From the NCBI GenBank assembly GCA_963965975.1, contig OZ014415.1, forward strand, positions 7,665,057 to 7,729,056: a stretch of DNA of 64,000 nucleotides, written 5' to 3'. The DNA comes from Xestospongia bergquistia. Its lineage: Eukaryota > Porifera > Demospongiae > Haplosclerida > Petrosiidae. Of this stretch, positions 10,501 to 60,014 are shown one piece after another (positions within the stretch are counted from its first letter, which is position 1; each line of letters begins with the position of its first letter). Under the pieces are notes generated by a model, which saw nothing but the letters and a program-made list of their open reading frames with translations, searched no databases and was not told where the DNA came from. Made by a program: the position numbers and the translations under genes.

Positions 10501-10750
10501 AAACATCAGCTGTCAAATTAGAGGAAGAATTAGTTAATGATATAGTGACAGAGGACACTGAGGAATTCACACTTATAGCACTTGATGATCCTAAGATATC
10601 TCCAATAGCTACAGTACTAGTGTCAACAATAGTTGGTAAATTACTAGAAATAGGCATTACAGTCATCACACCCAAAATTAAAGAAAGCACGAGAATTGAC
10701 AAACAAAAAAGCAACAAAATAACTGCTACACAATATTTTGTATTAGCCAT
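7514..10750 (-). CDS. Gene B: single-pass receptor with ZU5-UPA and one death domain
   Basis: Exons: 9298-10750 (signal peptide, ectodomain, TM, juxtamembrane), 8701-9248 (ZU5), 8503-8652, 8217-8451 (UPA-like), 8069-8164 (Ser-rich linker), 7514-7806 (death domain). The joined length is 925 codons including the stop, open throughout. The ATG abuts a splice acceptor as in gene A. The N-terminal hydrophobic run (ILLLFCLSILVLSLILG) is a signal peptide or anchor. The ectodomain has many NxS/T sites. The TM is the Cys-rich run near residues 275-300. The intracellular part has a DYKMKYV tyrosine motif, also present in C and in A as DYKVKYV. It is the only intact member of the A/B type here. Its first death domain is missing (see the remnant at 7914-8006); splicing straight from the linker to the last exon stays in phase. 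ZU5-UPA-DD suggests a receptor that recruits death-fold adaptors; the ligand is unknown. Confidence 0.85.
7914..8006 (-). pseudogene. Remnant of death-domain-1 exon in gene B
   Basis: On the minus strand this encodes TDPFLGKVLNIIT followed by KENWFNFGYELGL. It is clearly the start of the exon that carries death domain 1 in genes A (2320-2697) and C (42620-42973). Homology stops after GYELGL and runs into a simple-sequence stretch; the remaining two thirds and the splice donor are gone. The acceptor survives, but without a donor the exon cannot be used normally. Confidence 0.8.
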
Positions 10751-25300: not shown

Positions 25301-25698
25301 CTCTGATATTACCTTCTATTGTAAAGAATACTGTTCGGGTAGCAAGTGAGTCAACAACATAACTTGAGTCAATAGAAGATGTCACACTTACAATACAAGT
25401 GTATTCACCAGTGTCGAATGATGATACTAGATAGGTAAATTTAAGAGGTTGAATACGCACTAAACCTCCATTAAGAATATTAATATTCTCAAAACTTCGT
25501 CGACCATTATTAGTTATAGAAGATCCATTAAAGAGTATATTTATACTGACAGTCACACTAGCATCATTATAAGCATCTAAGCCAGTTACTAAGCACTGAA
25601 GTTCTCTGCTAGTTCCAGCATGATAAGGCTCTCCATTAGGGTCAGCAAAAAAAAGGACAAGATTATTACTATCTGGTATTGGCACTAAGAGGAGAGAT

Positions 25699-25732
<34 letters not shown>

Positions 25733-36772: not shown

Positions 36773-39700
36773 TCAGGTAATGACAATTTTAAAGATAACT
36801 ATTTTGAATTCATTCATAACTGACTTTTGTGAAAGGGTATTGATGTCCTCAGAAGTGTGATAAGCACCTGATGGAATAGGTGTTCTAGGTGAGTTAGTCG
36901 TATCATTTAAAAAGAGATCTCCACTTCTGGGTGTGTGGGTCAGTTGTGTCATTTGATGAGAGAACATCTCCATTTGTCCATGTGAAACACGTTTATCAGT
37001 CACGGGATATCTGTATCAATTAATTAATAAATACTAATAATATTAAAGTTATTGTTCACAAGGATAACCTTGTTATAATAGCTAGTACTTACTTGTTTTG
37101 AAATTTTTGCCTCCTTACAATGCTTCATGTAATATGTACAAGAAAAAATGAAATGTATATAGTAATGTCAATGTAAACAGAATGTAGCTATAGGTAATAT
37201 GATCAATAGCACAAGTCACTTGTATAAATATATAGTCAGGACTGAATAATATTATATAGCACATAAAAAGCCACATATATACCTGTCCTTTTGAATACTC
37301 ACCTGACCACTATAGCAATGATAATAATGATCATAAAAGTTAAAAATATTACTACCACAATAATACTTGTTACTGAAATAGTAATGTTTATAGCACTTAT
37401 AGAATCTATTGAGAGAGGAGAAAAACAATAAATAAGAATGGTTGGTACTTGTTTATCTTACTGGATCCTTCACTAACTGTTTGCCCACTATCACTAGCTG
37501 GTGTACTCTGTCCAGCACTGTTATTAGCTACAATACTACAGTTGTACATTGTAAAAGGTTGTAAACCATCAACAGTAACATTAACAGGAGGAGGATGAGA
37601 GTAGACCCTCAGTAAAGAAGAGAGGATTACTTTACTCTCAGTCTCATAACAAGTCAGAGTGTAGTTAGTGATAACACCATATTGTAGAAATGGATCAGGT
37701 GGTAACCATTGTACTGTCAGCTCATTAGAATAGATCTTTATAATGGAGAAATTTCTTGGAGGACCACCAGGAGCTAATTCACATATTTAAAAAGTTAAGC
37801 ATAATTTTAAGTTACCTTGTTCATGTGTGATAGTAGTCCCAAATGTAGGGTATCCAGTTCCAATATTGTTAGTAGCATTAAGACTACAATTAAGAGGAGT
37901 ACCTGGTCGAAACCTGTTAAGTATTAAATTAACTGATCCTTTCATATCGATAACAAATGGAGAGTCTACCAAATAAGTGATCTCATTGATTATCTCATAA
38001 CAAATCAGTGTGTAATTAGTTATGTCCTCTCCTATAAGAGGTGGATCCCAACTAAACATGACAGCAGTAGAATTAACTGATGAAAGAGTGAAATTCACTG
38101 GATGGCCAGGAGGAACTAAAATACAAAATACAAAATGATGTTAGAGCATAACAATTTATTACTGTAGAAATTACATATAAAATTGTTCAATCAAAGGTAG
38201 ACTTATACATTTAAATAATCAGTAATTTCTGTTACACATGATACAGGCTATTAATTAATGTTGAATTGTTTTATAAATAATTTATAAATTGTCAGGTTCT
38301 TCAAATGATCATTTACTACCTAGTATTGATACATTAAATTACAAATTAAAATATAGAAATAATAATTATATGTATACTAGATTAATATAATATTGTTATA
38401 TTATATTAATAAAAAAAAATAATAATAATAATATCGTTATTGTTGTCGTTGTTATCATTATTACTATTATGATTTTAATAAAACATATCAGTATACAACA
38501 AGTGACTTTCAAAACATTGTATTTTTTTAACCTTTTAATTTAAACTATAGATTAGTTCTATTTTGGAAACATTATTTTGCTTTGGTCATTTTCATTTTCT
38601 TTCTTTAGTTTCTTAGTATACTTACTTCCAACTGTCAAATGAAAGCTCTCTGTTTTATTCTCAACTTGATGGAGAACTAATAATCTTCCTTTACCAGTGT
38701 TAGATAGTGTCAGATTATTTATTTTAATAATTGCAATACTGTCCTCTAGTGATATTATAAGCTGTCCTGACTCTATGTTGTTTCCCTCCCAAACTAAATC
38801 ATTGAGAGTAACTGGAGGTTGTGCACTAGATATGCCAACTTGAAATACAACATAGCTACCAACATGACGATAAACTACTCTATTTGAGAGAAGTGTTAGG
38901 ACAGGAGGGACTAGAAAGAAAGACAGAAATGAACAACAATACATATAGTCCCCAGTAAGCCATGATACACTTACATAATATAGTCACATTGAATTCCAAC
39001 CTTACAGAGCCCACACCATTTGTAACATTTAGTACATAGACAACTCCATCTTCTAATGTAACATTAACTAAAGTTAAATTAAGTCCATGTTGTCCTGATA
39101 CACTAGCTCTACTGTCATTTAGAACATTTGAGACTATACTGTTGATATCACGAGTCCATGTCACTGTAGGATCAGGGTAACCTCTCTCATAGATAACTGA
39201 TAACTTCATGTCCTTTCCAATAGGTACATTTAATGTTGGCAATGTGAAATGAGTGATTTGAGGAGTGACTATAGAAAGGAAAGAGAGAAAAAATAAAGAT
39301 CTCTAAGTCAGGTACAACATAATATATAATTGTGATCTATAAAGCATAGAATTAAACAACCGGTATTATTAATAGCCTTACCTGGTATATTGACAGTAAC
39401 GTCTTGATGGTTCTTCCCAACAACATTATTAGCTCTACAAGTATATCTACCAGCTTGTTTTGCTTGAATGTTAGTAAATGTGAGACGAGAGACCCTATTA
39501 GAGAGTTGTTGTATAGTTCCTGAGTCATTCAATTCTATGTTGTCTTTTAGCCAAGTAAAGTTTGGAGGTGGATCACCATTGCTATCATTACAAGTAATAG
39601 AGAATGTTGTGTTTATAGTGACAATGACTTCTCTCTTGTTGAGACAATTACAATCTGAAGAGAGAGTGACTGAAGGAAGAGCTAGAGACAGACAGACAGA

Positions 39701-40814
39701 CAGACAGAGGCAGAGATAAAGAGAGAGAAGAGAAAGAGAGATTAGTGTAGATTCTATCCAGTTAATTAATTAGTGTGCAATGAATGATGTACATATAAAA
39801 ATCTCATGTGGAATGATGTTTACAACACGTAGACTACACATATGGTCATCCCATTATACAAAGAATAATAATATTGTTGTATTTTTATAATATGACATAT
39901 CAACTCACAATGAATGTCAAGTGTATTACTAGCTGTATCAGTACCAGCTAAAGAAGTGACATGGCATTCATATATTCCTTCCATGGACAGTTGAAAGCCA
40001 TTATCTGGCGTAATAAACACCGAACTTTTAGAAATGTAAATGTCAAATCCTTTACTACTAGCCAGTTGTGATGTTAATAATTCATTATTTAGATACCAAG
40101 TTATGTTATCTGCAGAAGGTTCTGGATTACCTGATACAAATACTTTTAGTACCAAATTTCCAGCATCGTTTACAGACTTAGTGCTGAATTCACTCTCTAT
40201 AATTACAATTGGATTACCTTTAAAATGTACAGAGAGAAAGCAAATAAAGAGAGAATTGAGATATAAACATATAATCTGGTAAAGATAATATTGTATAATA
40301 ACTGATTTGCTAGAAAACTGACCTTCAGTAATTTCCAAAGTACATGACCCGCTTGTTGATGTACATGTATAATTACCAGTCATATTACTTTGAAAGTTCT
40401 GAAAAAAAAGTGTAGGATCAGCTTTGTTATCTGTATAATATACTGAGGATCCACTATTAGGATGACTGTTGTCTACAGCTACTCCAACACCATTCTTTGT
40501 CCATGGTGCATTAGAAAAATCATCTTTTTTACATTCAATACTATATGTTTGACCTGTAGTCAACTGAATACTGCATGAATGACCTTGGAATTCTATGTTA
40601 GTTTTTCCTTTTCCTTTTCCATTGACTATTTTATTAATAAACAGTGTTGGCTGACCTAGAAGAGAGATATAAAAATAAAACCTTCAGGGTACATAAGAAC
40701 GGAGTTAGTGTTAATTGGATTGATAAACAATAAGTAATAATACTCACTTTCACACAACAAGAATTGAAGAAAAATGGAACAGTAAAGACTGACATGTTGA
40801 CAGCAGAACATCAT
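36773..40814 (-). CDS. F2: intact Ig5-FN3x2 single-pass receptor with short tail
   Basis: Exons: 40748-40814 (signal peptide), 40323-40655, 39909-40217, 39382-39681 (three Ig with cysteine pairs), 38975-39268 and 38626-38910 (Ig-like but without the canonical cysteines), 37816-38115, 37462-37773 (FN3), 37303-37405 (TM), 36773-37010 (tail). They join to 847 codons including the stop, open and in phase throughout. The Ig exons show DNITWYLNNELL and AGRYTCRANNVVG; the FN3 exons share an extra cysteine pair (TLTCYE ... YNCSIVANN). Signal and first four Ig exons are paralogous to those of gene C; the FN3 exons match the first two of C. The tail has RVSHGQMEMFSHQ, a His in place of the ITIM-like tyrosine of gene G, so it probably lacks that signalling site. 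It is a likely adhesion/recognition receptor, intact counterpart of F1. Confidence 0.88.
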
Positions 40815-40973
40815 CTCTTCATGATACAACACTTGATACAAATAAGCAGTTACTGGTGGTCTTTTTGTAGATTCCCCTTTGAGCAGTTTAGACAACAATA
40901 GAAATTTCAGAAGTTTACTATCAAGAGCTACTCTTAAGAAGCCATTTTTATGAATAACTATGCCTTGATTTGC

Positions 40974-41192
40974 AATAAGGGACCACATCTGTTACAACAT
41001 TTGTGACCCGATTTGTGAAAAGGGACTACAGTTGAAACACCTCAAAAAACAGTTTGGTATACATGCACGCAGTTACCAGGAATAATTGTCCATACATAGC
41101 AACACTATGTATCCAAACTGTCTTTTGGGATGCTTTAACAGTGGTATCTTTCATAAATCCGATAAAATGTTTTACCAGAAGTGGTCCCTTAT
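40974..41192. mobile_element. Complete MITE with AAGGGACCAC terminal inverted repeats
   Basis: The left end AATAAGGGACCACATCTGTT and right end ending AGAAGTGGTCCCTTATAAT pair over about 70 bp with mismatches. The element is about 220 bp with no coding capacity. Partial copies lie at 18548-18805 and 29121-29198. Confidence 0.7.
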
Positions 41193-41696
41193 AATGCAAA
41201 CAGGTCACTAGGTTAAATTTAATAGGAGAGATAGATGAGAATGGAGAATTCTATTTCATTAAAGCATAGTCTCTCATAGCAGTGAGTATAGACTATTTTC
41301 TGCTTTGATGTTGAGCTTAAAAGATGATCCAAGATAATTATTTTACAGATGAAAACCCAGTGTCTGTAAACCTAGCTACAATGAATTGAAACTCATTGCT
41401 GTCCAGAACTCATGATGGAATAGTTTTAAGTTCCATGCTACTTTCCTGTTGTTACTTTATTTAATTAGTTACTAATAATATATTCATCAAAATATGTAAG
41501 TGCAATTTGTAAGCTGGTTAAACATGGAATCTCATTACCTTCTAATTTGTAGGATGCTACAGCTTTCACTATTGATTATCAAAACACTTGCATTTTAAAA
41601 AAATTAAGCAATCACGTAAATAAAATATTTACTAAAAATGAAGTAGATGTAGGAATGGATAATATTAGTCCAATACAAAGAATGCAGAGGGCAAGA

Positions 41697-41850
41697 TAGT
41701 AGAGATGGCAATTACATCATTTCTACTCAATAACATGACACAAGCAATTAAGGATATACACGAGCTATCTAAATCACAATAAATAATTATCAGTGATACA
41801 TTCTGTGTCTGTGGTATTATGTAGGAATGATGTAATTGCCATACCTACTA
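41697..41850. mobile_element. MITE-like inverted repeat (GATGGCAATTACATCATT arms)
   Basis: The left arm GATGGCAATTACATCATT (from about 41704) pairs with GAATGATGTAATTGCCATAC (41825-41844), with GTAG/CTAC at the outer ends. The loop is about 100 bp and AT-rich. A second copy is at 54469-54622. Confidence 0.65.
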
Positions 41851-42118
41851 AACTCACTATGATTTTTGAGTCACTTCTATCTAATGAAGGGTGAGGCTAT
41901 GAGGGTGTCACACTCAAGGAGTATTTAGAATAATTTTATTGATTATTTCATAGTTTTATTAGTCAATGCAAGTGTGTTTTCGTTAAAGAATAATATATTT
42001 AACAATACCAAACTGTGCCAGTTAGAATACTTGTAAAACAACATAATATAGGTATAGAATAACCAAACTTTAAGAAATACAGAGAATATATGTATATATT
42101 TGTGACCTGACAAAACAA

Positions 42119-44226
42119 TTAAGATTGTAAATAGACAATTATATTCTCCACTACTTTGTAAGCTTTAATAGTATCAGATTGTAACACATTGATAACAGTA
42201 CCCCATGTAAAACTATCAGGATTAGTCTGACACCATTTATTAAAGACTTGATTAAATCTCTCTTGACAGTTAGGGTAGTCTATACGTAGACTATTAAGGT
42301 AACCCTCCTCTAGACCAACTGCCACTCCAAATAAGTGGTACTTATCTTCTATCTTTGCTCCAATAAGATTGTTAAGATCTGCTACAGAAGGAATTGCTTG
42401 TAATGTATCATCTGTAACTAAAGAAAGATATGTGGAAGATAGACTAAACAGATAGACAACTGATATGTAGCTACAGACAGATGGATGGAATAGCTAACAG
42501 ACAACCAAATGGATGAATAGATGGTAGAATGGATAACTAATTAATGATGGATGAATAAACAGACATACATATCTAGTTAGACATACAATCAACACTGACA
42601 GACTTATGAGGTACTATACCTTGAGAATTAAGTCCATGATACTTATTACACATGGAACAGTAAATACCATCTACTACTGGTGTCTGTGTATTCTCTTGAG
42701 TTATGAAATGATGCTTAACATCAACTGCAACTTCCGTCAAACCAATTTTATGAAGAGCTTCTGTTAAAGGTTCCCACGATGCACTTTTATTCTTAACTCT
42801 CCATTGAAGTAGTACTTTCCTAGTACATTGTAGAGGATCATGATACCTCATTTCAATGTCATCTAGTTGACCAACAGTTAGACCAAGTTCATAGCCAAAA
42901 TCAAACCACTTCTCACACAAATTATCTTTACTTGTAATGGTATGAAGTATCTCTCCAAAGAAAGGGTCTGTATCTAAATTTAGAATTAACTTATGTAAAC
43001 AATATTAATATTAATTTTTATACCTTTAGAGAAAAATCTTTCATCTGTTAGTGATGATGAACTTGTTGATGAAGTAGGAGTTGGAGGAAAAGAAAAACGC
43101 TTACTATCTGTTGAGTTTGATAGTAAGTATTACAATAATGTAAAATTTAGATATGAATATACCTGCTTTTTCTAAGACAATTGTATCAATAGTAGGAGGG
43201 TGGACATCATTAAATGTAACTGTTATGTTTTGGGTTCCAACATCCATTATATTTTCGACTTTGAATTTTAGACGAAAACGAGGAGGATAGGAGAGTAATT
43301 GTTCCAGAAGTTTAAGCCTCTCCTTGTGGTTACTCGTAACCTCTCCCCCTTCACAGCCCATCATCTTATAGTAATCAATGGAGTCCTCACATATCTGTTG
43401 GGAATAATATTAATAAAACAAAAATATGTTAATATTACTGTAGACCAGGAAATGTTCTATTATTCTTACATATTCATAGCAAAATCCGTTATAGGACCAC
43501 TTCCAGTCAGGGATATTCTCAGGTTGAAGTGAAAAAGAAACATGACCATTCTCAGCCCAGTTGACTGGTATGTAATAAGATAATGAGTAACCTTCTCTAC
43601 TATATTGTTCCTTTAACATCTAAATGTAGCATTAAATTAATTCAACTAGCAGGAATATATATTAGTTATTAGACTGACCTGCACACAACCACTCTCTTGA
43701 TACAAAAAGATATAATCTACAAATAAAGTATCGTCTTCCCTCTTATCAGCTCGAGCTATTAGATATTTCTTTGGTAACTCACTGTATGTTTGACCTTTAG
43801 TAGCAATACAGTTAGAACAGAAGTGAGGAGTAAGAATTTTCACCAAATTAGACTCAATTGTCACTCGACATTCATTGTTTAGTTTGAAAGTAAACACACT
43901 GTTTCTTAAAAAGGTTTCATCATCAGCTGTCAGTAAATATAGTTGATTTCTAAAAACCTCCATATTAGAGACATCAATGTGATGAGGTATATATAATTTA
44001 GCTGGTTTCATTAGTTGACAGTTGATGTGTGTCCACACAATAGGAGACACAGAAATAAAATCATCTTTAAACTTGAATTTATCACTTAACAAGGTCACAC
44101 CAAACCAGACTGTAGCTGTCCCTTCTATGGCTCCCTCTGGAATGATAAGAGTAACTCCATATTGACTACAGTGATGTACTAAACCAGTAGCAGTGAGTTC
44201 TAATACTGTCAAATTTTCAAAAATAG
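42119..44226 (-). other. ZU5-UPA-DD-DD cassette of gene C
   Basis: ZU5 (43679-44226) begins with FENLTVLELTATGLVHHCSQ, has GVTLIIPEGAIEG, and includes HFCSNCIA. The next two exons (NIPDWKWSYNGFCYEY; MMGCEGGEVTS ... YPPRFRLKF) fit a UPA-type beta domain. After a Ser/Thr linker come death domain 1 (CEKWFDFGYELGLTVGQLDD, then NKSASWEPLTEALHKIGLTE) and death domain 2 (GVAVGLEEGYLNSLR, FNKWCQTNPDSFTWGTVINV). Death domain 1 is followed by a CxxC-type segment (GIYCSMCNKYHGLN). Domain order equals that of gene A. Confidence 0.82.
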
Positions 44227-44494
44227 CTATACAACATAAAAAATATTATGTTAGACAAGACTGATATTTATTTACTTTTCATAATTTTGAGATCTGGAAG
44301 TAAGTCAGTTTTAAAATAACTTGATATGTTGCTTTCTTCACTAGTAGTATTAACATACTTCATCTTATAATCAGAACAGGAGGCAGCTGTTTGATCTTGT
44401 TTTATAACATTATCAGATGATATGTCTTCATTTGTCAGTGAAACTGAAGACAAAGAATCTTGATTTGAGTAAATAATAATAATAAGATAAAAAT

Positions 44495-44538
<44 letters not shown>

Positions 44539-46816
44539 GTAATTAATCTTTGTTGAGTTTACAAAATGTTTAAAAATCTTATGTATAAATAGGTTAGAAA
44601 AATGGGACTATAAATGACTTACCAATATCTTGAAAATCAGCATATTCCATTCTCATTTGTGGCCTAGTAGTTGAGGGTGTGGTCATTTCAACAATGTTAT
44701 CTATAGTATAATAAGAAAACCACAACTAAATAATAAGGTCGATGTTTTTTTTATATGTTAAAAGATAATTAAATATAAATTGTTATGGATTAATTCAATT
44801 ATCATGTGGTTAAATAGAATTAGTAACTTACCAACATCTAGAGACTTAGTATCTTCCAAAGGTTGGTCTACACTACTTGTTTGTAGTCTAGCTATTGAGG
44901 ATGTGGTCATCACTAAGGATACAATAAATAATGTAAATATCATAAAATGAATAATTAATTCAACATAAATATATATACTCATAATGTCAGTTTTATGCTT
45001 GAAATTTGAATCCCAAAGTAAAAGTAGACACCTTTAAGAATTACAAACAAAACTTCAGTTACTGAAACATATAATGATGTTTGTACTACAAGTAAATATA
45101 AATTTCCAATGAAATGTAGGAATATGGTGGTAGAAACTTCTGAAACAAGGTCACAAAAGTAATGCCAGTCACAAACAACAATAGCACATGAATGGATATA
45201 TAACACTGTAAATAACACATGGTCCAAAACGATTATAAGACTGTCTTGCACACTTTGTATGCCAGGCAGTAAAAGCAAAAATACACATTGATAATTTAAG
45301 GAAGCCAAGTCCTAGATCAGCATACTTTATTAATGACCCCTACTCCCTAAACCCTAAACATTAACTGTTAAAGCATGTTGTCCAAAGGTCAGACTGTCTC
45401 CATAATAATTGGAAAATCAGTGATTTCATCTAGTTTAAAAATTTCATAATGTTTAAATTATTTTGATGATATTATATTAGAGACTAAGACAGAAATATCA
45501 GAGATCAGTGACTATTGATCGATCTAATACATAGACAAAATCCGATAGAGTGTTATACATAATAACATCCTCCTTATGTTTGCAACATAATAACAAATGA
45601 ATAATAGCACTAGTCATCTTGTTATACTGAGTTATACAGAGTTATACTACATCATACTACAATATGCAGAACATACTATACTAAAGTGTATATTGGTATA
45701 GCTTACAAGGATAGACATTGGTAATTCTATTCTTTGGTTGATTGACAAGTGTTGTTGCAGCTTCATGTAGACCAACTCCAGGTTTGTTTAATGACTAACG
45801 AAAGATAAGGTTTCCATAGCAATAGTAATTAGAAGCAAGGCACGTCTTACTTGGTCATCAAGTTCAAATCTTTTATCACGACTTTGATGCATTTCTTTGA
45901 CATGTTGGTGGAATTCACTTCGAGGAATTGATTTCATACATTTGCCTATTAAATGATAAATGAATGCATAAAAGGAAATGGATGAATGATTTGTATGGAT
46001 AAATACATGTAGATATTATGATATACAAATGATCATATAAACAGACCAATATGTAATAAAAATGGACACATTAAGCAGTAAATTGATATAATGAGTAATT
46101 GGACAGTTATATGTACTTACTATGATTTAATTCAGGTGTTATCTTAATTGATTCAAGCTCAGTAACTTTGCTGTTTAATGACTTTGACTTCTTAAATTCA
46201 GTTTTGTCATCTTCCTTAATATAATCTGAGGGTTTATAGCCAACTAAAGATCTTGGTTTGTTCCTGTGTGTGTCAGTCACATAATATATGCAATGTGAAT
46301 CACATGACATAGTCACATAGTCTATAAAGATCACACGATCTCTAGCATTATGTACATGTAGTACATTAAAATGCATAGTACAAGTTAATATTCTATATTT
46401 CACATGATGTGCATGTGCTTATCACACAATGCTCACCTCATTACTGTAATAATGGCAATGCTTACAGTAATAATTAATATTACTACTATAACAACAACAA
46501 CTGAAATAGCTATAAGGACAAATAAACCAGTTGATTCTAGAAAGAGAGAGATTATCTCAAACACAATATCATATAAGATACCTTACCATTAAGCAGTGGA
46601 ACTTCATGACTAGTTGATTCTGGAAAGAGAGAGATCAACTAAAACACAACATCATATAGGATAACATACCTGTAGGAACTATATTACTAGTTGACACTGG
46701 AGAGAGAGAGAGAGAGAGAGAGGAAGAGAAAGGTCAACTAAAACATCATATAAGGTTACTTACCTGAAAGTAGTGAAACTACATCGCTGGTTGACTCTGG
46801 AGAGAGGGAGCAAGCG

Positions 46817-46915
<99 letters not shown>

Positions 46916-47012
46916 AACTAAAACATCATACAAGGTTACTTTACTTACCTGAAAGTAGTGAAACTACAGGACTTGGTGACTCTATACCTGAAACTACATG
47001 ACTTGCTGACTC

Positions 47013-47050
<38 letters not shown>

Positions 47051-47201
47051 AACTAAAATGCAACATCATATAAGATAACTTACCTGTAGGAACTACATGA
47101 CTAGTTGACACTGGAGAGAGAGAGAGGAAGAGAAAGGTCAACTAAAACATCAAATAAGGTTACTTACCTGAAAGTAGTGAAACTACATCACTGGTTGACT
47201 C

Positions 47202-47244
<43 letters not shown>

Positions 47245-50200
47245 ACTAAAACACAATATTGTATAAGATAACTTACCTGTAAGTAGTGGAACTATATGTA
47301 CAACAGGTTCACTACTACTACCTTCACCCACACTAGTTACAGCACTAACAGTTACAATATACCTCATACCAGCCTGTAAATCATTAATAGTCACTTCATG
47401 TTGATTAGCAGGGACAATGACAAAGTTCTTATTAATTTGTATTTGTCGAGAGTAACGTTGAGGAGCGTAATTGATAATATAATGAATTATCTTCCCTCGT
47501 GCTATTGTAATATCAATTGGAGTCCATGTAATGGACATAGCTGTTTGATTGATATGTCTTACACTGACATTTGTAGGTGGAGGAGGTCCTATAAAAAAAT
47601 TAGTATAATATTATATATTTACTGGTATTTTCATGAATTGATAGTAAATTAACATGTATTACTATGCTATTGTTCAGTTATCTCCTCATCTAACTAATAA
47701 ATAGTAACAAATATTGTGTTTTTAGAATATAGGAAATAAAGATTAGTATTACTGAGTGACAAATCTATCAATACAACTGCTGATTATTAATAATTATTTA
47801 TCATTTATTAATTACTGAGAGTATGGGATTGAGGAAATTATCACTTTAAATACAAAAATCAATCTATAAAAAAACACATGAAACTTACTTCCTTCTTCAG
47901 TGAATATAACATAGTTGACAGGCTCTCCTGGACCTTTTGAGTTGATAGCAATGACTGTGACATTATATGGAATAAAACCACCTATTGAGAGAAAGAAGTC
48001 AATTGAATAAAATTTTTAACCTCAATTATTTTGACAATATTAAATTTAAAGGCCATAATAATCATACATCCTTATAGTCTATTATCACTCTTCCACTGAC
48101 TATTACTATAAATGTAATGTTGTTAGATGTATTATAGATATTGTTAGTTATATTAAATGTTGTCTGTTAAAGTTGAATTGTTGCTATGCATTAGACAGGG
48201 TCACTTGAGGTCTTTTCCATCACATTATTTTTAAAAATTAGACAAGCAAAGTTTTAGAGAAACTATTGAAGTTTCAAATAAAACAAATCTAACTAATTTT
48301 ATTGAATATAAGATTAAAGTGTACATGTATACTGTCACTTACTTAGTCCCTTAAACTGAACTTCAAACTGGCTTCCATTTATAACTATCATTTGTCTGTC
48401 CTCTCTAGTATATTGTACAATAGTCACTTGATACTGTAAAATGATACCATGAGCTACTGAGAGAGACTGATCGGTACAGTTGATAAGTAAGATAGATGAT
48501 GTGAGAGGATGATATTCAATTCCTTCCACTGGACCAGGTGCTTTGAGAATAAAGGAAAAGGTTGATGGATTGATACAAAAAACAGTTGGATGAATAATCA
48601 TTCAATTAATAGGTTAATGAACTAACAAGTGAATAAATACTCACTGGATTCCTCTGTTCGTACTATCTTCAAATCACTGCTTGGTCCCTCTCCTATGGCA
48701 GTCCAGGCTGAGACCTGTACTTCTATTAGTTGATATGGACTGAGACCCATAACTTCATATTCATTCTTAAATACAGGTACAGAGTCAACACTACCATTAA
48801 GATAATCTACATGTACACTATATTGTGTAATGTAACCATTAGGTTTAAATGGAGGGGCCCATGTAACCAAGATAGAGTAAGAAGAGATAGAAGTAAGAGA
48901 GACATACCGAGGAGGACTACCAGGTTCTGTGTAAAACAAGAATTAAAATTTATAAATAAATGAATAAAGAGATGGATGGACATACAAGCAAGAAATGGAA
49001 CATTGAAACAAAAAGCCAAAAACTTACTTTCTTCTCTTGTTCTCCTTGTCAATTTTGCAGGTGGTCCTTCTCCCTCTGTAGAATTAGCGAACACATAGCA
49101 CTCATATGTAGTACCAGGTGTGAGCCCATAAATAACTAAATTATATACTCCATCAGTCATTTCAAGTTCATCATCAGCTGATACTTGAATAGGTTCAAAC
49201 TCAGTTGTATTACAGCCAATTGTGTAGTTAACAATAATACCATTCTGTTGTGCATCAGGTATAGGTTGCCATGACAACTTGAGAGTTGTAGAATTGAAGA
49301 TTGTCATCAAAAAAGATGAAGGAGTCCCATCAGGTACTGTAAGAGATAGCAAATGGTAAACTAAATAGACTGTTATATAACGAGAAGAAAAATGATAAAC
49401 AAGTCTTATGACATAATTTTTTTTCCTATTTTTGTTGGTATATTGTTAAAGTCATTCACTCATTCCTCAATTACTAAGTGGCTAGTTTATCACACTTACC
49501 ATCTGGTTCAGTCATACAACTATCACTAGCAGCTGTACTCTGTCCAGCACTATTATTAGCTACAATAGTACAGTTGTACATTGTAAAAGGTTGTAAACCA
49601 TCAATAGTAACATTAACAGGAGGAGGATGAGAGTAGACCCTTGGTAGAGAGGAAGGGACTACTTTACTTTTAGTCTCGTAACAAGACAATGTGTAGCTAA
49701 TGATAATACCATATTGAAGAAATGGATCAGGTGGTAACCACTGTACTGTGAGCTCATGAGAATAGATGTTTGTAATAGAGAAACTCCTTGGAGGACCACC
49801 AGGAGCTACAGATAGAAAAAAAGATCACTTATCTCTTCACTTTATCAATGAGGATCTACCAACCTTCTTTTTGAGTAGTAGTATAATTGTATGCAGCTGG
49901 ACCTGTTCCAGCCTCATTAGAAGCAGTAACACTACAGTTAATAGTAGTACCAGGTCTAAATCCATTAAGAACAAGATCAACAGAGCCATTATAATTATTG
50001 ACAGTATAAGGAAATACAGGAGATTTAACAAGATATGAAAATCCATTAATTGTCTCATGGCAAGTAAGAGTGTATTTAATGATGAAACCATGTCTATGTT
50101 CTAGAGGAGGTGAGCTCCAAGCCAGGGAAAGAGCAGTTGAATTGAGAGCAGAGATAACAAAACTTGTAGGAGGAGAAGTAAGAGCTAAATAAATAGTAAT

Positions 50201-52081
50201 AGAGAGAGTAGAAGGTGACAGCTGCTAATAGATGGTAAGTAGACAATTAAACAATGAAAAATTAAACGATCAATCATCAATGAATCTAATGTATTAATTA
50301 TTTCTTCAATTTCATTTGTTATTTAGTTAAAGTAACTCACTTACTCCTCAATTACTTAGTAGCTAGTTTATCACACTTACCATCTGGTTCAGTCATACAA
50401 CTATCACTAGCAGGTGTACTCTGTCCAGCACTGTTATTAGCTACAATAGTACAGTTGTACATTGTAAAAGGTTGTAAACCATCAGCAGTAACATTAACAG
50501 GAGGAGGATGAGAGTAGACCCTTGGTAGAGAGGAGGGAACTACTTTACTCTCAGTCTCATAACAAGACAATGTGTAGTTGATGATAATACCATATTGAAG
50601 AAATGGATCAGGTGGTAACCACTGTACTGTGAACTCATCAGAATAGATGTTTATAATGGAGAAATTCATTGGAGGACCACCAGGAGCTAATTCAAATATT
50701 AAAAAAGTTAAGCATAATTTTAAGTTACCTTGTTCATGTGTAATAGTAGTCCCAAATGTAGGGTATCCAGTTCCAATATTGTTAGTACCATGAAGACTAC
50801 AATTAAGAGGAGTACCAGGTCGAAACCTGTTAAGTATTAAATCAACTGATCCTTTCATATCGACAACAAATGGAGAGTCTACCAAATAAGAGATCTCATT
50901 GATTATCTCATAGCAAATCAATGTATAATTAGTTATGTCCTCTCCTATAAGAGGTGGATCCCAACTAAACATGACAGCAGTAGAATTAACAGACAAAAGA
51001 GTGAAATTCATTGGATGGCCAGGAGGCACTACAAAACATAAAATTTCATCAGAGCATGAGCATACATTATTGTATAAATTACATTTAAAATTGTTCAATC
51101 ATTAATAAACTTATACATTTAAAATATTACAAGTAACCTATTATCCATTAGATATGATACAGGCTACTTATGTTGAATTATTTTATAAATACTCTATAAG
51201 TTGTCACTCTTGTTCTAATGATCACTTACTTACCAACTATTGTCACATTAAATTCCAACTCTATATAGCCTTCAGTATTCTCAACCTCAAGTACATATAT
51301 CCCTTCGTCTTCTAATGTGACATTAACTAAAGTTAAATTGAGTCCATGTTGTCCTGATACACTAGCTCTACTGTCATTTAGAACATTTGAGACTTCTTCA
51401 TTGCTATAATAAGTCCATGTCACAGTGGGATCAGGATAGCCTCCTTCATAGATGAACGATAATTTCATATCATTTCCAATGGGTACATTTAATGTTTGCA
51501 ATGTGATATGAGTGATTTGAGGAGCAACTATAGAAGGGAAAGATAAATATATGAGAGTTCTGTAAGTCAGATGGCTCGTAATATATAATTGTGATCTACA
51601 ATGTAAAAATTTGTTATTGCAACAATCAAGTTGTAGCTTTCATGGGTGGATCGTTATGGAATTCAGAATTTAAATTCTATAGTAATCTACTTATGTAAAT
51701 AAATTGGTTGTTAAAATAACATTAATTTTACAGTGATAAAGCACAGAATTTAAACAACATATTAATAGCCTTACCTGCTATATTAATTGTAACATCTTGA
51801 TGATTCTTTCCAACAACATTATTAGCTCTACAAGTATATCTACCAGCTTGTTTTGCTTGAATGTCATTGATTGTGAGACGAGAGACCCTATTAGAGAGTT
51901 GTTGTATAGTTACTGAGTTATTGTTCAATTCTATGTTGTCTTTTAGCCAAGTAAAGGTTGGAGGTGGATCACCATTGCTATCATTACAAGTGATAGAGAA
52001 TGTTGTGTTTATAGCGACAACGATTTCTCTATTGTTGAGACAATTACAATTTGAAGAGAGAGTGACTGAAGGACGAGCTAA

Positions 52082-52143
<62 letters not shown>

Positions 52144-53586
52144 GTACATGTAGATGTTAACTTGTAAGTAATTTTTTGTTTTACATACACACATATGTGT
52201 ACTATGCTCATTAACAATTAAAACTAGTAAAATTATTATTCTAATCTGGTTACTAAGTGAAAGATACATACTATCAGACATCAATGGAACTTTGTATAGT
52301 TGGTCTAACTAGTTACCATGTGCATACTTGTATGTTAGGTAATAGACAAACAGTAGACTTCTAAGAAGAGTCATTTTTCGTAAGCATAACAAGGACTAAG
52401 TCTAATATCATTTAATTTAGTTTAAAAAGGTGCAAGACAGGCTATTGACATATGGAGGGTATACAAAAAAGGAGAGCAGTGTTATGTAACCTCAACAAGC
52501 CTGGGTTTACCTATGTCACTGTTATATAATGTGCTGTTGTTTTAACAAAAACAATTTAAATAGCTAAGACCTATCATCAGTTAATTAATTAGTGTACGTG
52601 TACATGTAAATAATCCTGTGAATACTAACAACATACATATGGTTGTCTTATAATGTTTAATATGACATATCAACTCACAATGAATGTCCAATATGTGACT
52701 AGCAGTAGCAGTACCAGCTGAAGTAGTGACATGACATTCATATATTCCTTCCATTGATAGCTGAAACCCATTATCTGGTGTAATAAACACCGAACTTTTA
52801 GAAATGTAAATGTCAAATCCTTTACTACTAGCCAGTTGTGATGTTAATAATTCATTATTTAGATACCAAGTTATGTTATCTGCAGAAGGTTCTGGATTTC
52901 CTGATACAAATACTTTGAGTACCAAATTTCCAAAATCATTTTCAGACTTTGTGCTAACTTCATTCTCCATAATTACAATAGGATTACCTTTAGAATGTAA
53001 AGGGAGAAAGCAGATAAAGAGAAAGAATTAAGATACAAACATAAAGTATACAATCTGGTAAAGATAATATAATGTAATAATTACATAGACTGACCTTCAG
53101 TAATTTCCAAAGTACGTGAACCACTAATTGATGTACATGTATAATTACCAGTCATATTACTTTGAAAATTCTGAAACACAAGTATACGATCAGCTGTGTC
53201 ATCTGTATAATATACTAAGGATCCACTATTAGGATGACTGTTGTCTACAGTTACTCCAACACCATTCACTGTCCATGGTGTATTAGAAAAATCATCACTT
53301 TTACATTCAATACTATATGTTTGACCTGTAGTCAACTGAATACTGCGTGAATGACCTTGGAATTCTATGTTAGTTTTTCCTGTTCCTTTTCCATTGACTA
53401 TTTTATTAATAGACAGTGTTGGTTGACCTAGAAGAGAGATATAAAAATAAAAACTTCAGGGTACATAAGAACGGAGTTAGTGTTAATTGGATTGATAAAC
53501 AATAAGTAATAGTACTCACTTTCACACAACAAGAATTGAAGAAAAATGAAACAGTAAAGACTGACATGTTGATAGCAGAACATCAT
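42119..53586 (-). CDS. Gene C: Ig4-FN3x8-stalk-TM-RPTP-like linker-ZU5-UPA-DD-DD receptor
   Basis: Thirty-three exons join to 2126 codons, all in phase. Signal: 53520-53586. Ig: 53095-53427, 52679-52987, 51775-52077, 51234-51527. FN3: 50729-51028, 50381-50686, 49864-50184, 49500-49805, 49028-49336, 48645-48926, 48343-48540+47889-47981, 47277-47588. Stalk micro-exons: 46587-47200. TM: 46437-46536 (LIAISVVVVVIVVILIITVS). Juxtamembrane: 46121-46263, 45851-45945, 45707-45794, 44832-44912, 44623-44700, 44276-44458. ZU5: 43679-44226; 43470-43619; UPA-like: 43163-43394; linker: 43024-43107; death domains: 42620-42973 and 42119-42411. The ectodomain is paralogous to F2 and G, the tail to A and B. Three juxtamembrane exons resemble the receptor tyrosine phosphatase linker, yet no phosphatase domain follows. 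The design parallels UNC5 (Ig/TSP-TM-ZU5-UPA-DD) with a different ectodomain. It is expected at the plasma membrane, linking contact or ligand sensing to death-fold adaptors; that role is inferred. Confidence 0.85.
44497..44533. repeat. (AT)n microsatellite in an intron of C
   Basis: About eighteen AT units just upstream (coding strand) of the 44276-44458 exon. In gene D the same tract is about 20 bp longer (57269-57326), the main length difference between the copies. Confidence 0.9.
45707..46263 (-). other. RPTP-like juxtamembrane exons in gene C
   Basis: Exons 46121-46263, 45851-45945 and 45707-45794 follow the TM. They encode SIPRSEFHQHVKEMHQSRDK, then RFELDDQSLNKPG and ATTLVNQPKNRITNVYP. 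Receptor tyrosine phosphatases have the same order just before the catalytic core: an IP-x-x-x-(F/L) helix, an FxxEFExL-like segment, an NKxKNRYxNVxPYD segment. The match ends exactly at the exon border after NVYP. No phosphatase core (HCSAGxGRTG type) is visible in the following introns or elsewhere. Confidence 0.65.
46587..47200 (-). other. Array of repeated stalk micro-exons in gene C
   Basis: Six phase 1-1 exons of 33, 27, 63, 33, 27 and 33 nt: 47168-47200 (ESTSDVVSLLS), 47084-47110 (VSTSHVVPT), 46949-47011 (ESASHVVSGIESPSPVVSLL...), 46764-46796 (ESTSDVVSLLS), 46670-46696 (VSTSNIVPT), 46587-46619 (ESTSHEVPLLN). Each has a GT donor, mostly GTAAGT or similar, and most are preceded by a (CT)n tract ending CCAG. 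The TM exon starts with the same EST motif, so it joins the series. Confidence 0.85.
46682..47240. repeat. Cluster of (GA)n and (GT)n microsatellites between stalk micro-exons
   Basis: (GA)n tracts lie near 46700-46722, 46855-46912, 47013-47048, 47113-47126 and 47203-47239, and a (GT)n near 46821-46850. On the coding strand they are (CT)n, ending at the acceptors of the micro-exons. Confidence 0.9.
52082..52140. repeat. (GA)n microsatellite at an Ig acceptor of C
   Basis: About 29 GA units just upstream (coding strand) of the third Ig exon of gene C. F1 and F2 have degenerate GA/CAGA repeats at the same place (16880-16945, 39682-39745). Confidence 0.9.
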
Positions 53587-53745
53587 CTCTCCATGATACA
53601 ACACTTGATACAAATAAGCAGTTACAGGTGGTCTTTTTGTAGATTCCCCTTTGAGCAGTTTAGACAACAATAGAAATTTCAGAAGTTTACTATCAAGAGC
53701 TACTCTTAAGAAGCCATTTTTATGAATAACTATGCCTTGATTTGC

Positions 53746-53964
53746 AATAAGGGACCACATCTGTTACAACATTTGTGACCCGATTTGTGAAAAGGGACTA
53801 CAGTTGAAACACCTCAAAAAACAGTTTGGTATACATGCACGCAGTTACCAGGAATAATTGTCCATACATAGCAACACTATGTATCCAAACTGTCTTTTGG
53901 GATGCTTTAACAGTGGTATCTTTCATAAATCCGATAAAATGTTTTACCAGAAGTGGTCCCTTAT
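53746..53964. mobile_element. AAGGGACCAC MITE, second complete copy
   Basis: Identical by eye to 40974-41192 and part of the large duplication, so probably not an independent insertion. Confidence 0.7.
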
Positions 53965-54468
53965 AATGCAAACAGGTCACTAGGTTAAATTTAATAGGAG
54001 AGATAGATGAGAATGGAGAATTCTATTTCATTAAAGCATAGTCTCTCATAGCAGTGAGTATAGACTATTTTCTGCTTTGATGTTGAGCTTAAAAGATGAT
54101 CCAAGATAATTATTTTACAGATGAAAACCCAGTGTCTGTAAACCTAGCTACAATGAATTGAAACTCATTGCTGTCCAGAACTCATGATGGAATAGTTTTA
54201 AGTTCCATGCTACTTTCCTGTTGTTACTTTATTTAATTAGTTACTAATAATATATTCATCAAAATATGTAAGTGCAATTTGTAAGCTGGTTAAACATGGA
54301 ATCTCATTACCTTCTAATTTGTAGGATGCTACAGCTTTCACTATTGATTATCAAAACACTTGCATTTTAAAAAAATTAAGCAATCACGTAAATAAAATAT
54401 TTACTAAAAATGAAGTAGATGTAGGAATGGATAATATTAGTCCAATACAAAGAATGCAGAGGGCAAGA

Positions 54469-54622
54469 TAGTAGAGATGGCAATTACATCATTTCTACTC
54501 AATAACATGACACAAGCAATTAAGGATATACACGAGCTATCTAAATCACAATAAATAATTATCAGTGATACATTCTGTGTCTGTGGTATTATGTAGGAAT
54601 GATGTAATTGCCATACCTACTA
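54469..54622. mobile_element. MITE-like inverted repeat, second copy
   Basis: Copy of 41697-41850 carried by the large duplication. Confidence 0.65.
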
Positions 54623-54890
54623 AACTCACTATGATTTTTGAGTCACTTCTATCTAATGAAGGGTGAGGCTATGAGGGTGTCACACTCAAGGAGTATTTAG
54701 AATAATTTTATTGATTATTTCATAGTTTTATTAGTCAATGCAAGTGTGTTTTCGTTAAAGAATAATATATTTAACAATACCAAACTGTGCCAGTTAGAAT
54801 ACTTGTAAAACAACATAATATAGGTATAGAATAACCAAACTTTAAGAAATACAGAGAATATATGTATATATTTGTGACCTGACAAAACAA

Positions 54891-57266
54891 TTAAGATTGT
54901 AAATAGACAATTATATTCTCCACTACTTTGTAAGCTTTAATAGTATCAGATTGTAACACATTGATAACAGTACCCCATGTAAAACTATCAGGATTAGTCT
55001 GACACCATTTATTAAAGACTTGATTAAATCTCTCTTGACAGTTAGGGTAGTCTATACGTAGACTATTAAGGTAACCCTCCTCTAGACCAACTGCCACTCC
55101 AAATAAGTGGTACTTATCTTCTATCTTTGCTCCAATAAGATTGTTAAGATCTGCTACAGAAGGAATTGCTTGTAATGTATCATCTGTAACTAAAGAAAGA
55201 TATGTGGAAGATAGACTAAACAGATAGACAACTGATATGTAGCTACAGACAGATGGATGGAATAGCTAACAGACAACCAAATGGATGAATAGATGGTAGA
55301 ATGGATAACTAATTAATGATGGATGAATAAACAGACATACATATCTAGTTAGACATACAATCAACACTGACAGACTTATGAGGTACTATACCTTGAGAAT
55401 TAAGTCCATGATACTTATTACACATGGAACAGTAAATACCATCTACTACTGGTGTCTGTGTATTCTCTTGAGTTATGAAATGATGCTTAACATCAACTGC
55501 AACTTCCGTCAAACCAATTTTATGAAGAGCTTCTGTTAAAGGTTCCCACGATGCACTTTTATTCTTAACTCTCCATTGAAGTAGTACTTTCCTAGTACAT
55601 TGTAGAGGATCATGATACCTCATTTCAATGTCATCTAGTTGACCAACAGTTAGACCAAGTTCATAGCCAAAATCAAACCACTTCTCACACAAATTATCTT
55701 TACTTGTAATGGTATGAAGTATCTCTCCAAAGAAAGGGTCTGTATCTAAATTTAGAATTAACTTATGTAAACAATATTAATATTAATTTTTATACCTTTA
55801 GAGAAAAATCTTTCATCTGTTAGTGATGATGAACTTGTTGATGAAGTAGGAGTTGGAGGAAAAGAAAAACGCTTACTATCTGTTGAGTTTGATAGTAAGT
55901 ATTACAATAATGTAAAATTTAGATATGAATATACCTGCTTTTTCTAAGACAATTGTATCAATAGTAGGAGGGTGGACATCATTAAATGTAACTGTTATGT
56001 TTTGGGTTCCAACATCCATTATATTTTCGACTTTGAATTTTAGACGAAAACGAGGAGGATAGGAGAGTAATTGTTCCAGAAGTTTAAGCCTCTCCTTGTG
56101 GTTACTCGTAACCTCTCCCCCTTCACAGCCCATCATCTTATAGTAATCAATGGAGTCCTCACATATCTGTTGGGAATAATATTAATAAAACAAAAATATG
56201 TTAATATTACTGTAGACCAGGAAATGTTCTATTATTCTTACATATTCATAGCAAAATCCGTTATAGGACCACTTCCAGTCAGGGATATTCTCAGGTTGAA
56301 GTGAAAAAGAAACATGACCATTCTCAGCCCAGTTGACTGGTATGTAATAAGATAATGAGTAACCTTCTCTACTATATTGTTCCTTTAACATCTAAATGTA
56401 GCATTAAATTAATTCAACTAGCAGGAATATATATTAGTTATTAGACTGACCTGCACACAACCACTCTCTTGATACAAAAAGATATAATCTACAAATAAAG
56501 TATCGTCTTCCCTCTTATCAGCTCGAGCTATTAGATATTTCTTTGGTAACTCACTGTATGTTTGACCTTTAGTAGCAATACAGTTAGAACAGAAGTGAGG
56601 AGTAAGAATTTTCACCAAATTAGACTCAATTGTCACTCGACATTCATTGTTTAGTTTGAAAGTAAACACACTGTTTCTTAAAAAGGTTTCATCATCAGCT
56701 GTCAGTAAATATAGTTGATTTCTAAAAACCTCCATATTAGAGACATCAATGTGATGAGGTATATATAATTTAGCTGGTTTCATTAGTTGACAGTTGATGT
56801 GTGTCCACACAATAGGAGACACAGAAATAAAATCATCTTTAAACTTGAATTTATCACTTAACAAGGTCACACCAAACCAGACTGTAGCTGTCCCTTCTAT
56901 GGCTCCCTCTGGAATGATAAGAGTAACTCCATATTGACTACAGTGATGTACTAAACCAGTAGCAGTGAGTTCTAATACTGTCAAATTTTCAAAAATAGCT
57001 ATACAACATAAAAAATATTATGTTAGACAAGACTGATATTTATTTACTTTTCATAATTTTGAGATCTGGAAGTAAGTCAGTTTTAAAATAACTTGATATG
57101 TTGCTTTCTTCACTAGTAGTATTAACATACTTCATCTTATAATCAGAACAGGAGGCAGCTGTTTGATCTTGTTTTATAACATTATCAGATGATATGTCTT
57201 CATTTGTCAGTGAAACTGAAGACAAAGAATCTTGATTTGAGTAAATAATAATAATAAGATAAAAAT

Positions 57267-57330
<64 letters not shown>

Positions 57331-59608
57331 GTAATTAATCTTTGTTGAGTTTACAAAATGTTTAAAAATCTTATGTATAAATAGGTTAGAAAAATGGGAC
57401 TATAAATGACTTACCAATATCTTGAAAATCAGCATATTCCATTCTCATTTGTGGCCTAGTAGTTGAGGGTGTGGTCATTTCAACAATGTTATCTATAGTA
57501 TAATAAGAAAACCACAACTAAATAATAAGGTCGATGTTTTTTTTATATGTTAAAAGATAATTAAATATAAATTGTTATGGATTAATTCAATTATCATGTG
57601 GTTAAATAGAATTAGTAACTTACCAACATCTAGAGACTTAGTATCTTCCAAAGGTTGGTCTACACTACTTGTTTGTAGTCTAGCTATTGAGGATGTGGTC
57701 ATCACTAAGGATACAATAAATAATGTAAATATCATAAAATGAATAATTAATTCAACATAAATATATATACTCATAATGTCAGTTTTATGCTTGAAATTTG
57801 AATCCCAAAGTAAAAGTAGACACCTTTAAGAATTACAAACAAAACTTCAGTTACTGAAACATATAATGATGTTTGTACTACAAGTAAATATAAATTTCCA
57901 ATGAAATGTAGGAATATGGTGGTAGAAACTTCTGAAACAAGGTCACAAAAGTAATGCCAGTCACAAACAACAATAGCACATGAATGGATATATAACACTG
58001 TAAATAACACATGGTCCAAAACGATTATAAGACTGTCTTGCACACTTTGTATGCCAGGCAGTAAAAGCAAAAATACACATTGATAATTTAAGGAAGCCAA
58101 GTCCTAGATCAGCATACTTTATTAATGACCCCTACTCCCTAAACCCTAAACATTAACTGTTAAAGCATGTTGTCCAAAGGTCAGACTGTCTCCATAATAA
58201 TTGGAAAATCAGTGATTTCATCTAGTTTAAAAATTTCATAATGTTTAAATTATTTTGATGATATTATATTAGAGACTAAGACAGAAATATCAGAGATCAG
58301 TGACTATTGATCGATCTAATACATAGACAAAATCCGATAGAGTGTTATACATAATAACATCCTCCTTATGTTTGCAACATAATAACAAATGAATAATAGC
58401 ACTAGTCATCTTGTTATACTGAGTTATACAGAGTTATACTACATCATACTACAATATGCAGAACATACTATACTAAAGTGTATATTGGTATAGCTTACAA
58501 GGATAGACATTGGTAATTCTATTCTTTGGTTGATTGACAAGTGTTGTTGCAGCTTCATGTAGACCAACTCCAGGTTTGTTTAATGACTAACGAAAGATAA
58601 GGTTTCCATAGCAATAGTAATTAGAAGCAAGGCACGTCTTACTTGGTCATCAAGTTCAAATCTTTTATCACGACTTTGATGCATTTCTTTGACATGTTGG
58701 TGAAATTCACTTCGAGGAATTGATTTCATACATTTGCCTATTAAATGATAAATGAATGCATAAAAGGAAATGGATGAATGATTTGTATGGATAAATACAT
58801 GTAGATATTATGATATACAAATGATCATATAAACAGACCAATATGTAATAAAAATGGACACATTAAGCAGTAAATTGATATAATGAGTAATTGGACAGTT
58901 ATATGTACTTACTATGATTTAATTCAGGTGTTATCTTAATTGATTCAAGCTCAGTAACTTTGCTGTTTAATGACTTTGACTTCTTAAATTCAGTTTTGTC
59001 ATCTTCCTTAATATAATCTGAGGGTTTATAGCCAACTAAAGATCTTGGTTTGTTCCTGTGTGTGTCAGTCACATAATATATGCAATGTGAATCACATGAC
59101 ATAGTCACATAGTCTATAAAGATCACACGATCTCTAGCATTATGTACATGTAGTACATTAAAATGCATAGTACAAGTTAATATTCTATATTTCACATGAT
59201 GTGCATGTGCTTATCACACAATGCTCACCTCATTACTGTAATAATGGCAATGCTTACAGTAATAATTAATATTACTACTATAACAACAACAACTGAAATA
59301 GCTATAAGGACAAATAAACCAGTTGATTCTAGAAAGAGAGAGATTATCTCAAACACAATATCATATAAGATACCTTACCATTAAGCAGTGGAACTTCATG
59401 ACTAGTTGATTCTGGAAAGAGAGAGATCAACTAAAACACAACATCATATAGGATAACATACCTGTAGGAACTATATTACTAGTTGACACTGGAGAGAGAG
59501 AGAGAGAGAGAGAGGAAGAGAAAGGTCAACTAAAACATCATATAAGGTTACTTACCTGAAAGTAGTGAAACTACATCGCTGGTTGACTCTGGAGAGAGGG
59601 AGCAAGCG

Positions 59609-59685
<77 letters not shown>

Positions 59686-59782
59686 AACTAAAACATCATA
59701 CAAGGTTACTTTACTTACCTGAAAGTAGTGAAACTACAGGACTTGGTGACTCTATACCTGAAACTACATGACTTGCTGACTC

Positions 59783-59820
<38 letters not shown>

Positions 59821-59971
59821 AACTAAAATGCAACATCATATAAGATAACTTACCTGTAGGAACTACATGACTAGTTGACACTGGAGAGAGAGAGAGGAAG
59901 AGAAAGGTCAACTAAAACATCAAATAAGGTTACTTACCTGAAAGTAGTGAAACTACATCACTGGTTGACTC

Positions 59972-60014
<43 letters not shown>

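Follow-up and report, generated by a model that had tools for sequence, protein, structure and literature searches.

A putative chimeric receptor with a receptor-phosphatase linker and a death-fold tail in the sponge Xestospongia bergquistia

How does a receptor come to carry the membrane-proximal linker of a receptor tyrosine phosphatase (RPTP) together with a death-fold tail instead of the enzyme? The question is raised by a gene, here called gene C, in a stretch of 64,000 nucleotides of the Xestospongia bergquistia genome (assembly GCA_963965975.1, contig OZ014415.1, C5:7665057-7729056). This whole stretch is referred to as the window, and it was compared with the genome of 146 Mb in 21 contigs. 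Gene C is a mosaic at the DNA level, its spliced frame is open and no phosphatase is detectable in the window. With a probability of about 0.77, it is a chimeric type-I receptor produced by recombination in introns, in which the trunk, transmembrane (TM) segment and linker of an RPTP are joined to exons of a putative Roc-like GTPase gene and to the tail of a family of short receptors, represented in the window by genes A and B.

Gene C and its phosphatase-type linker

Open frames and splice sites were joined manually to give the gene C model. It runs on the minus strand from an ATG at 53586 to a stop at 42119 and comprises 27 exons, with 6114 nucleotides including the stop and 2037 amino acids. 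All 26 introns are of the GT-AG type with compatible phases, and the only stop is the terminal one. The coordinates, exons and unbroken frame that an initial annotation had given for 42119-53586 agree with this model. The order of the domains, as judged by Pfam and the exons, is a signal peptide, four immunoglobulin (Ig) domains, eight fibronectin type III domains (numbered FN1 to FN8), a TM segment, the linker, ZU5, UPA and two death domains (DD1 and DD2). Exon 1 (53520-53586) holds the start codon and a putative signal peptide, with an N-terminus that is hydrophobic by eye. In the joined protein, Pfam finds fn3 in eight stretches (E 2.3e-86), I-set (3e-32) and Death (4.9e-9); the families at E<=1 include Ig and fn3 families and no thrombospondin repeat. 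The introns are mostly of phase 1, and the pieces of the gene are therefore able to join in frame. In an excerpt of one study (PMC5336234), the fibronectin type III domains of R3-type RPTPs are likewise described as mostly having phase-1 introns on both sides, which aids shuffling.

Behind the TM exon (46437-46536, hydrophobic by eye), the juxtamembrane linker begins with the exons LK1 (46121-46263), LK2 (45851-45945; SIPRSEFHQHV...) and LK3 (45707-45794; ...PKNRITNVYP). LK2, which includes SIPRSEFHQHVKEMHQ, corresponds to the membrane-proximal helix region of RPTPs, and LK3, which includes LVNQPKNRITNVYP, to the segment just before the catalytic core. When the 58 residues of LK2 and LK3 were searched alone against PDB, three distinct sequences were matched at E<=10, and all of them are RPTPs. 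The matches to PTPRO and CRYP-2 have a modest E of 0.016-0.023 and fall within the first 5-69 residues of the chains, at the start of the cytoplasmic construct. It had been claimed beforehand that an RPTP linker precedes the ZU5 and death-domain tail, and the similarity to receptor phosphatases on which that claim depends is present.

In the sponge's own genome, the linker has six matches at E<=10, which lie in three places only: gene C, its tandem copy gene D, and C5:768 kb. The last belongs to gene R (C5:763-778 kb), a fibronectin type III receptor phosphatase on the same contig as gene C. The open frames of gene R follow the order of gene C through the fibronectin domains, TM and linker, and then continue into phosphatase exons with WPD and HCSAGVGRTG. 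Joined together, these exons match PF00102 with E 1.4e-57, and their best PDB matches are LAR/PTPRS-like (PTPRS, E 2.4e-106). By blastn, the two genes are colinear over FN3-FN8 (47277-50184 in gene C), TM and linker, introns included. The identity is 71% over 46114-46486 (TM and LK1; E 5e-51), 76% in 439 columns over 45655-46071 (LK2, LK3 and introns; E 1e-84) and 69% in a further match over 45533-45695, in the intron behind LK3. At the protein level, the TM match is weak, LK2 is 72% and LK3 62% identical to R, and KNR(F) of R has become KNR(I) in C. The splice position and the donor after NVYP/NIYP are identical in both genes.

A resemblance to RPTPs by chance or convergence, with no phosphatase ancestor, would suit the shortness and the E-values of the linker-alone match, as well as the failure of Pfam to find PF00102 in gene C. 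However, the match to R takes in introns and fibronectin exons too, along with the common splice position and donor, and chance is hardly credible as an account of the linker. By its sequence, the linker is derived from a receptor phosphatase.

A wider search of the genome was made with the R linker and the first phosphatase exon as the query. It returned 38 matches, some of them weak (E up to 3.4), of which 20 touch the linker part and fall into 16 loci. By comparison of coordinates, 14 of these 16 lie near a same-strand phosphatase match, and the other two, C and D, do not. In the window, no phosphatase signature (regular expressions of the HCxxGxGR type) was present in any of the six frames. 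Similarly, tblastn with the R phosphatase exons did not find them in the window, the best match (E 0.042 at 21674) being outside gene C; within R, the same peptides gave 1e-68 to 1e-15. As no remnants were found by either method, alternative phosphatase exons within the window are unlikely. The exchange of the enzyme for a death-fold tail, as first proposed, is upheld by these comparisons, since R is colinear with C, introns included, through the linker and then has the phosphatase exons that C is without.

At least 194 PF00102 matches are present in the genome, many of them exon by exon. Large clusters of phosphatase matches lie at C5 0.43-0.79 Mb, C9 1.99-2.15 Mb, C10 0.97-1.25 Mb and C2 6.83-6.93 Mb.

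Death-fold tail and further sources of the mosaic

From 44464 downwards, gene C matches gene A (2176-4175, 77%) and gene B (7912-9479, 78%). Both are short-ectodomain receptors on the minus strand. Gene A (1611-5445) has DD1 and DD2, and a single in-frame stop interrupts its long first exon; in gene B (7517-10750), the donor-type ZU5-UPA-DD tail is without most of DD1. In gene C, the tail consists of the exon LK6 (44276-44458), a ZU5-like exon (43679-44226) with an HFCS motif at residues 1635-1638, UPA-like exons (43163-43619, as 43619-43470 and 43394-43163), the DD1 exon (42668-42973; PF00531, E 3.4e-8) and an exon with DD2 and the stop (42119-42411). The ZU5 exon is 69-75% identical in amino acids to those of A and B. 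In A and B, the counterpart of LK6 closes a single long exon, in which the ectodomain and TM are encoded as well. The piece in gene C, captured from the interior of such an exon, lacks the start codon and TM that A and B have, and is preceded by LK5, TM and fibronectin exons of other origin. A weak APD1-4_M match is seen in the ectodomain of gene B and of the Amphimedon protein P0001.

The tail family is dispersed across the genome (39 matches). Its nearest named relatives belong to Amphimedon queenslandica (1/1 in one search and 8/9 in another, at 39-44% identity), and P0024 of that sponge aligns with 82% of the tail query at 43% identity. None of the ten tail homologues from Amphimedon or elsewhere is listed with an Ig or fn3 domain. 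The ZU5, the UPA-like region and two death domains of gene C had been named from the sequence, and by Pfam this stands for DD1 but not for the rest: ZU5 (E 0.032, 14.9 bits) falls under its cut-off of 21, DD2 (E 0.02) is weak and also under the cut-off, and UPA was not found in the joined protein. For this reason, the ZU5-UPA label rests on the predicted fold of the homologue P0024. With Foldseek, the P0024 model has two matches only at E<=0.001, namely UNC5b 3g5b (2.3e-8) and the ZU5-ZU5-UPA-DD of ankyrin-B, 4d8o (3.5e-7). The model contains two helical bundles matching death domains. Its confidence is uneven: mean predicted local distance difference test (pLDDT) 55 and predicted template modelling score (pTM) 0.28, with the death domains above 80 and ZU5 mostly below 50. 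For the ZU5 exon of gene C itself, the model reached a pLDDT of 31, too low to use. Taken with the DNA match to A and B, the tail of gene C is predicted to be the ZU5-UPA-DD-DD of their receptor family.

Between the phosphatase-type linker and the tail lies a third kind of DNA. The first fusion junction falls in the intron at 45067-45706, where homology to R extends to about 45533 and homology to another gene starts at 45066. The segment 44652-45066, with the exons LK4 (44832-44912) and LK5 (44623-44700), aligns with C5:7936008-7936434 at 81% identity in 441 columns; the amino acid identity is 81% for LK4 and 62% for LK5. The counterparts there sit between a 711-aa frame and a further frame, and they are internal exons with the same splice borders. 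The second junction falls in the intron at 44459-44622, which contains a TA repeat and where homology to A and B starts at 44464. The direct run from linker into tail that had been described is thus correct as to the frame, which is unbroken, but two small exons of a third gene intervene. The 711-aa frame matches Pfam Roc with E 0.014, under the cut-off, and has no match in PDB. It includes a stretch, GPARAGKTS, which we take to be P-loop-like, and on these two grounds the third donor is putatively a Roc-like GTPase gene. The frame behind it looks death-domain-like by eye and was recognised neither by Pfam nor by the PDB search. A ROC-COR-Death label would exceed this evidence and was rejected. 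The putative Roc-like P-loop GTPase gene occupies C5:7935000-7939500 (L063), with further occurrences at C5:7790211-7790725 and 7960312-7960799.

The outer part of the ectodomain points to yet another source. The exons of Ig1-Ig4 (51234-53427, as 53427-53095, 52987-52679, 52077-51775 and 51527-51234) and of FN1 and FN2 (50381-51028, as 51028-50729 and 50686-50381) are 78-93% identical in amino acids to two short-tailed genes of the window, E and H, with FN1 and FN2 alone at 86-93%. For FN3-FN7 the closest genes are G and R, and for FN8, TM and linker the closest is R. The notion of a retained RPTP ectodomain, TM and linker accordingly holds from FN3-FN8 onward, but not for Ig1-Ig4, FN1 and FN2, which resemble the short-tail receptors. 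Overall, gene C is a mosaic of at least four sources.

The same trunk is found in front of different tails. A search of the genome with FN6-FN7 gave at least 154 matches, and among those listed, the 14 with at least 63% identity belong to just four genes, namely C, D, G and R. Behind the shared trunk stands a phosphatase in R, the death-fold tail in C and D, and a short tail in G. Gene G (19593-28542, minus strand; open frames without a full exon model) has an ectodomain colinear with R, including the Ig part. Its short tail carries YENDHPYENI, possibly a phosphotyrosine docking stretch. One trunk with three tails is reminiscent, by analogy, of paired receptors. A tandem cluster of Ig/fibronectin receptors on the minus strand (E, F, H and one partial gene, at 36776-40991, 30496-34315, 13847-18032 and about 12064-13217) has a common short tail exon of the type YRxPVTDKxVSxxQxEMFSHQ.

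Integrity of the fused frame and selection

We infer that one transcript spans the join and that the product is a functional receptor placed in the membrane. Several observations, in addition to the sub-threshold ZU5 and the undetected UPA, weigh against this. LK4 opens with LMTTSS and has an ATG near its start, so that the tail could be transcribed separately; the intron between LK3 and LK4 has an AATAAA at 45331, and like hexamers occur elsewhere in gene C. The locus might then hold two transcription units, that is, a linker-ended receptor without a catalytic domain and a cytosolic ZU5-UPA-DD-DD protein. The Amphimedon prediction P0024 (599 aa), which starts just before ZU5 and has no TM-like stretch, would suit such an arrangement. 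However, every junction between the two halves is phase-compatible and GT-AG, and the tail piece of gene C begins mid-way through a coding exon of A/B type. LK4 and LK5 are internal in the GTPase gene too, with the same splice borders, and the ATG of LK4 is for that reason not special to gene C. Two units are, on balance, unlikely.

The fusion may, on the other hand, be non-functional, a recombination scar that is open by chance or an artefact of assembly. The neighbours of donor type are damaged, gene A by its in-frame stop and gene B by the loss of most of DD1. Moreover, gene C is nearly identical to gene D (54891-64000, minus strand), which lies inside the window from FN1 to the stop and has its signal and Ig exons beyond the edge. 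The two differ by 2 substitutions in 4808 aligned coding bases, and may represent either a recently duplicated pair or haplotypes left unmerged. Against this stand 2037 open codons and intact splice sites, in spite of a DNA divergence of roughly 11-29% from the sources compared. Existing loci that had been misassembled would diverge less, and a long-dead gene would hold stops. A dead or artefactual fusion is thus quite improbable, and assembly error was rejected as the main account in view of the same divergence.

The tandem repeat that contains C and D is 12.8 kb long (window 39888-51230 and 52658-64000). It has 9 substitutions over 40855-51230 and 71 in about 2.2 kb below 42119, nearly all of them in 39919-40854. 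This step may reflect a difference in age or gene conversion.

Selection on the fused parts was estimated from the ratio of nonsynonymous to synonymous substitution rates (dN/dS) by the method of Nei-Gojobori, leaving out FN2 because FN2 and FN4 share one R exon. For FN3-FN8, gene C against R gave 0.39 (591 codons, 95% 0.29-0.52), and for the tail, gene C against A gave 0.36 (505 codons, 95% 0.27-0.48). By these ratios, the fibronectin trunk and the tail are under constraint. The linker LK1-LK3 gave 1.04 against R (95% 0.55-2.19), on only 103 codons, and the share of bootstrap samples with the linker not above the trunk was 0.0004. In control comparisons of LK2-LK3, R against two other phosphatase copies had ratios of 0.44 and 0.37; a third, R against L025 (0.49), is less clean, as the two exons paired in it are separated by 1.8 kb and may belong to different copies.

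The case for a receptor fused and then maintained is tempered here as well. LK6, an ordinary linker, has 0.84-0.94 against A and B, and no elevation is seen when the gene C linker is set against the more distant RPTP copies (0.30-0.37, from shorter alignments). A three-way relative-rate count assigned 9 private changes to C, the KNR(F) to KNR(I) change among them, and 3 to R (p 0.15, not significant). The constraint seen in the tail may have acted before the fusion, and C and D, with 2 exon and 7 intron substitutions between them (exon against intron, p 0.09), are too alike to reveal constraint after it. That the linker was relaxed once the enzyme had gone is plausible but unproven.

Proposed mechanism and known receptors

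In the chimeric origin favoured here, a receptor phosphatase of gene R type would have given FN3-FN8, TM and the 58-residue juxtamembrane linker. The phosphatase would then have been lost, the frame passing through the two small exons of the putative Roc-like GTPase gene into a ZU5-UPA-DD-DD tail of A/B type, and neighbouring short-tail receptors would have supplied Ig1-Ig4, FN1 and FN2. Ligand binding, which in R would control tyrosine dephosphorylation, may in gene C open a closed ZU5-UPA-DD module, by analogy with UNC5. The opened module would let the death domains recruit death-fold adaptors, with the former RPTP linker left as a mere spacer. An excerpt of PMC8358048 describes the cytoplasmic part of UNC5B as alternating between a closed form, in which ZU5 holds UPA and DD, and a pro-apoptotic open form. 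In the simplest view, we infer that gene C links an adhesion or recognition ectodomain to a closed/open switch like that of UNC5B.

A more ambitious possibility adds self-cleavage and output swapping. The HFCS motif is present in gene C, in the 12 best family loci (12/12; L033-L044) and in 8 of the 9 Amphimedon relatives examined. According to the part of PMC3210808 available, CARD8 and NLRP1 cleave themselves where ZU5 ends, at an (S)F/S motif, and PIDD at HF/S. In the VIA-align comparison, the C-terminal fragment of NLRP1 (residue 1214; cleavage Ser 1213) begins at the Cys of HFC (model residue 166), in a low-confidence region, and this Cys could be the cleavage nucleophile. The locus might then belong to an output-swapping system: in a fast-duplicating cluster, intron recombination would place phosphatase, short or death-fold tails behind the same fibronectin trunk, yielding paired receptors that recognise one kind of ligand and respond to it in opposite or otherwise distinct ways, and a tail self-cleaving at HF/CS would release UPA-DD-DD upon ligand binding. 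Such a system is doubtful as a whole, and is offered tentatively.

Among known receptors, the RPTPs (R3 type, PTPRO/PTPRQ/Ptp10D; R2A type, LAR/PTPRS) share with gene C the fibronectin type III trunk, a single TM (by eye in C) and the linker signatures IP..F..HV..M and KNR..N..P, which in RPTPs stand directly before the catalytic core. Gene C differs in having no phosphatase domain, KNRI in place of KNR(Y/F), and a death-fold tail instead. The UNC5 netrin receptors are similarly of type I with Ig domains; their ZU5-UPA-DD module would have its counterpart in the predicted tail of gene C, and UNC5b 3g5b is the first match of the P0024 model. However, gene C has eight fibronectin type III domains, two death domains and the RPTP linker, whereas the excerpt of PMC8358048 gives UNC5B thrombospondin repeats. 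The sponge ZU5-UPA-DD-DD receptors (A, B; Amphimedon P0001, P0022-P0029) carry the same tail behind a short, TM-anchored, single-exon ectodomain, in contrast to the Ig and fibronectin domains of C. The FIIND proteins (NLRP1, CARD8) and PIDD have ZU5-UPA followed by a death-fold domain, as predicted for gene C, and the low-confidence model would put HF-C-S at their (H/S)F/S position; gene C differs as a predicted membrane receptor with Cys in place of Ser at the cleavage position. No receptor with the architecture of gene C is named in the open-licence PMC literature searched.

Gene C presents the rewiring of a receptor whose donors are still recognisable at the DNA level, introns included, in a genome where the same trunk precedes an enzyme, a short tail or a death-fold tail, depending on the gene. 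It seems that one kind of extracellular sensor was reconnected to another intracellular message. With three tails behind one trunk in a single genome, the change of message with a kept sensor, and the fate of a linker that has lost its enzyme, become directly addressable. If translated, gene C would have an architecture absent from the literature searched, and would bring phosphotyrosine and death-fold signalling together in a sponge, where recognition receptors are little known.

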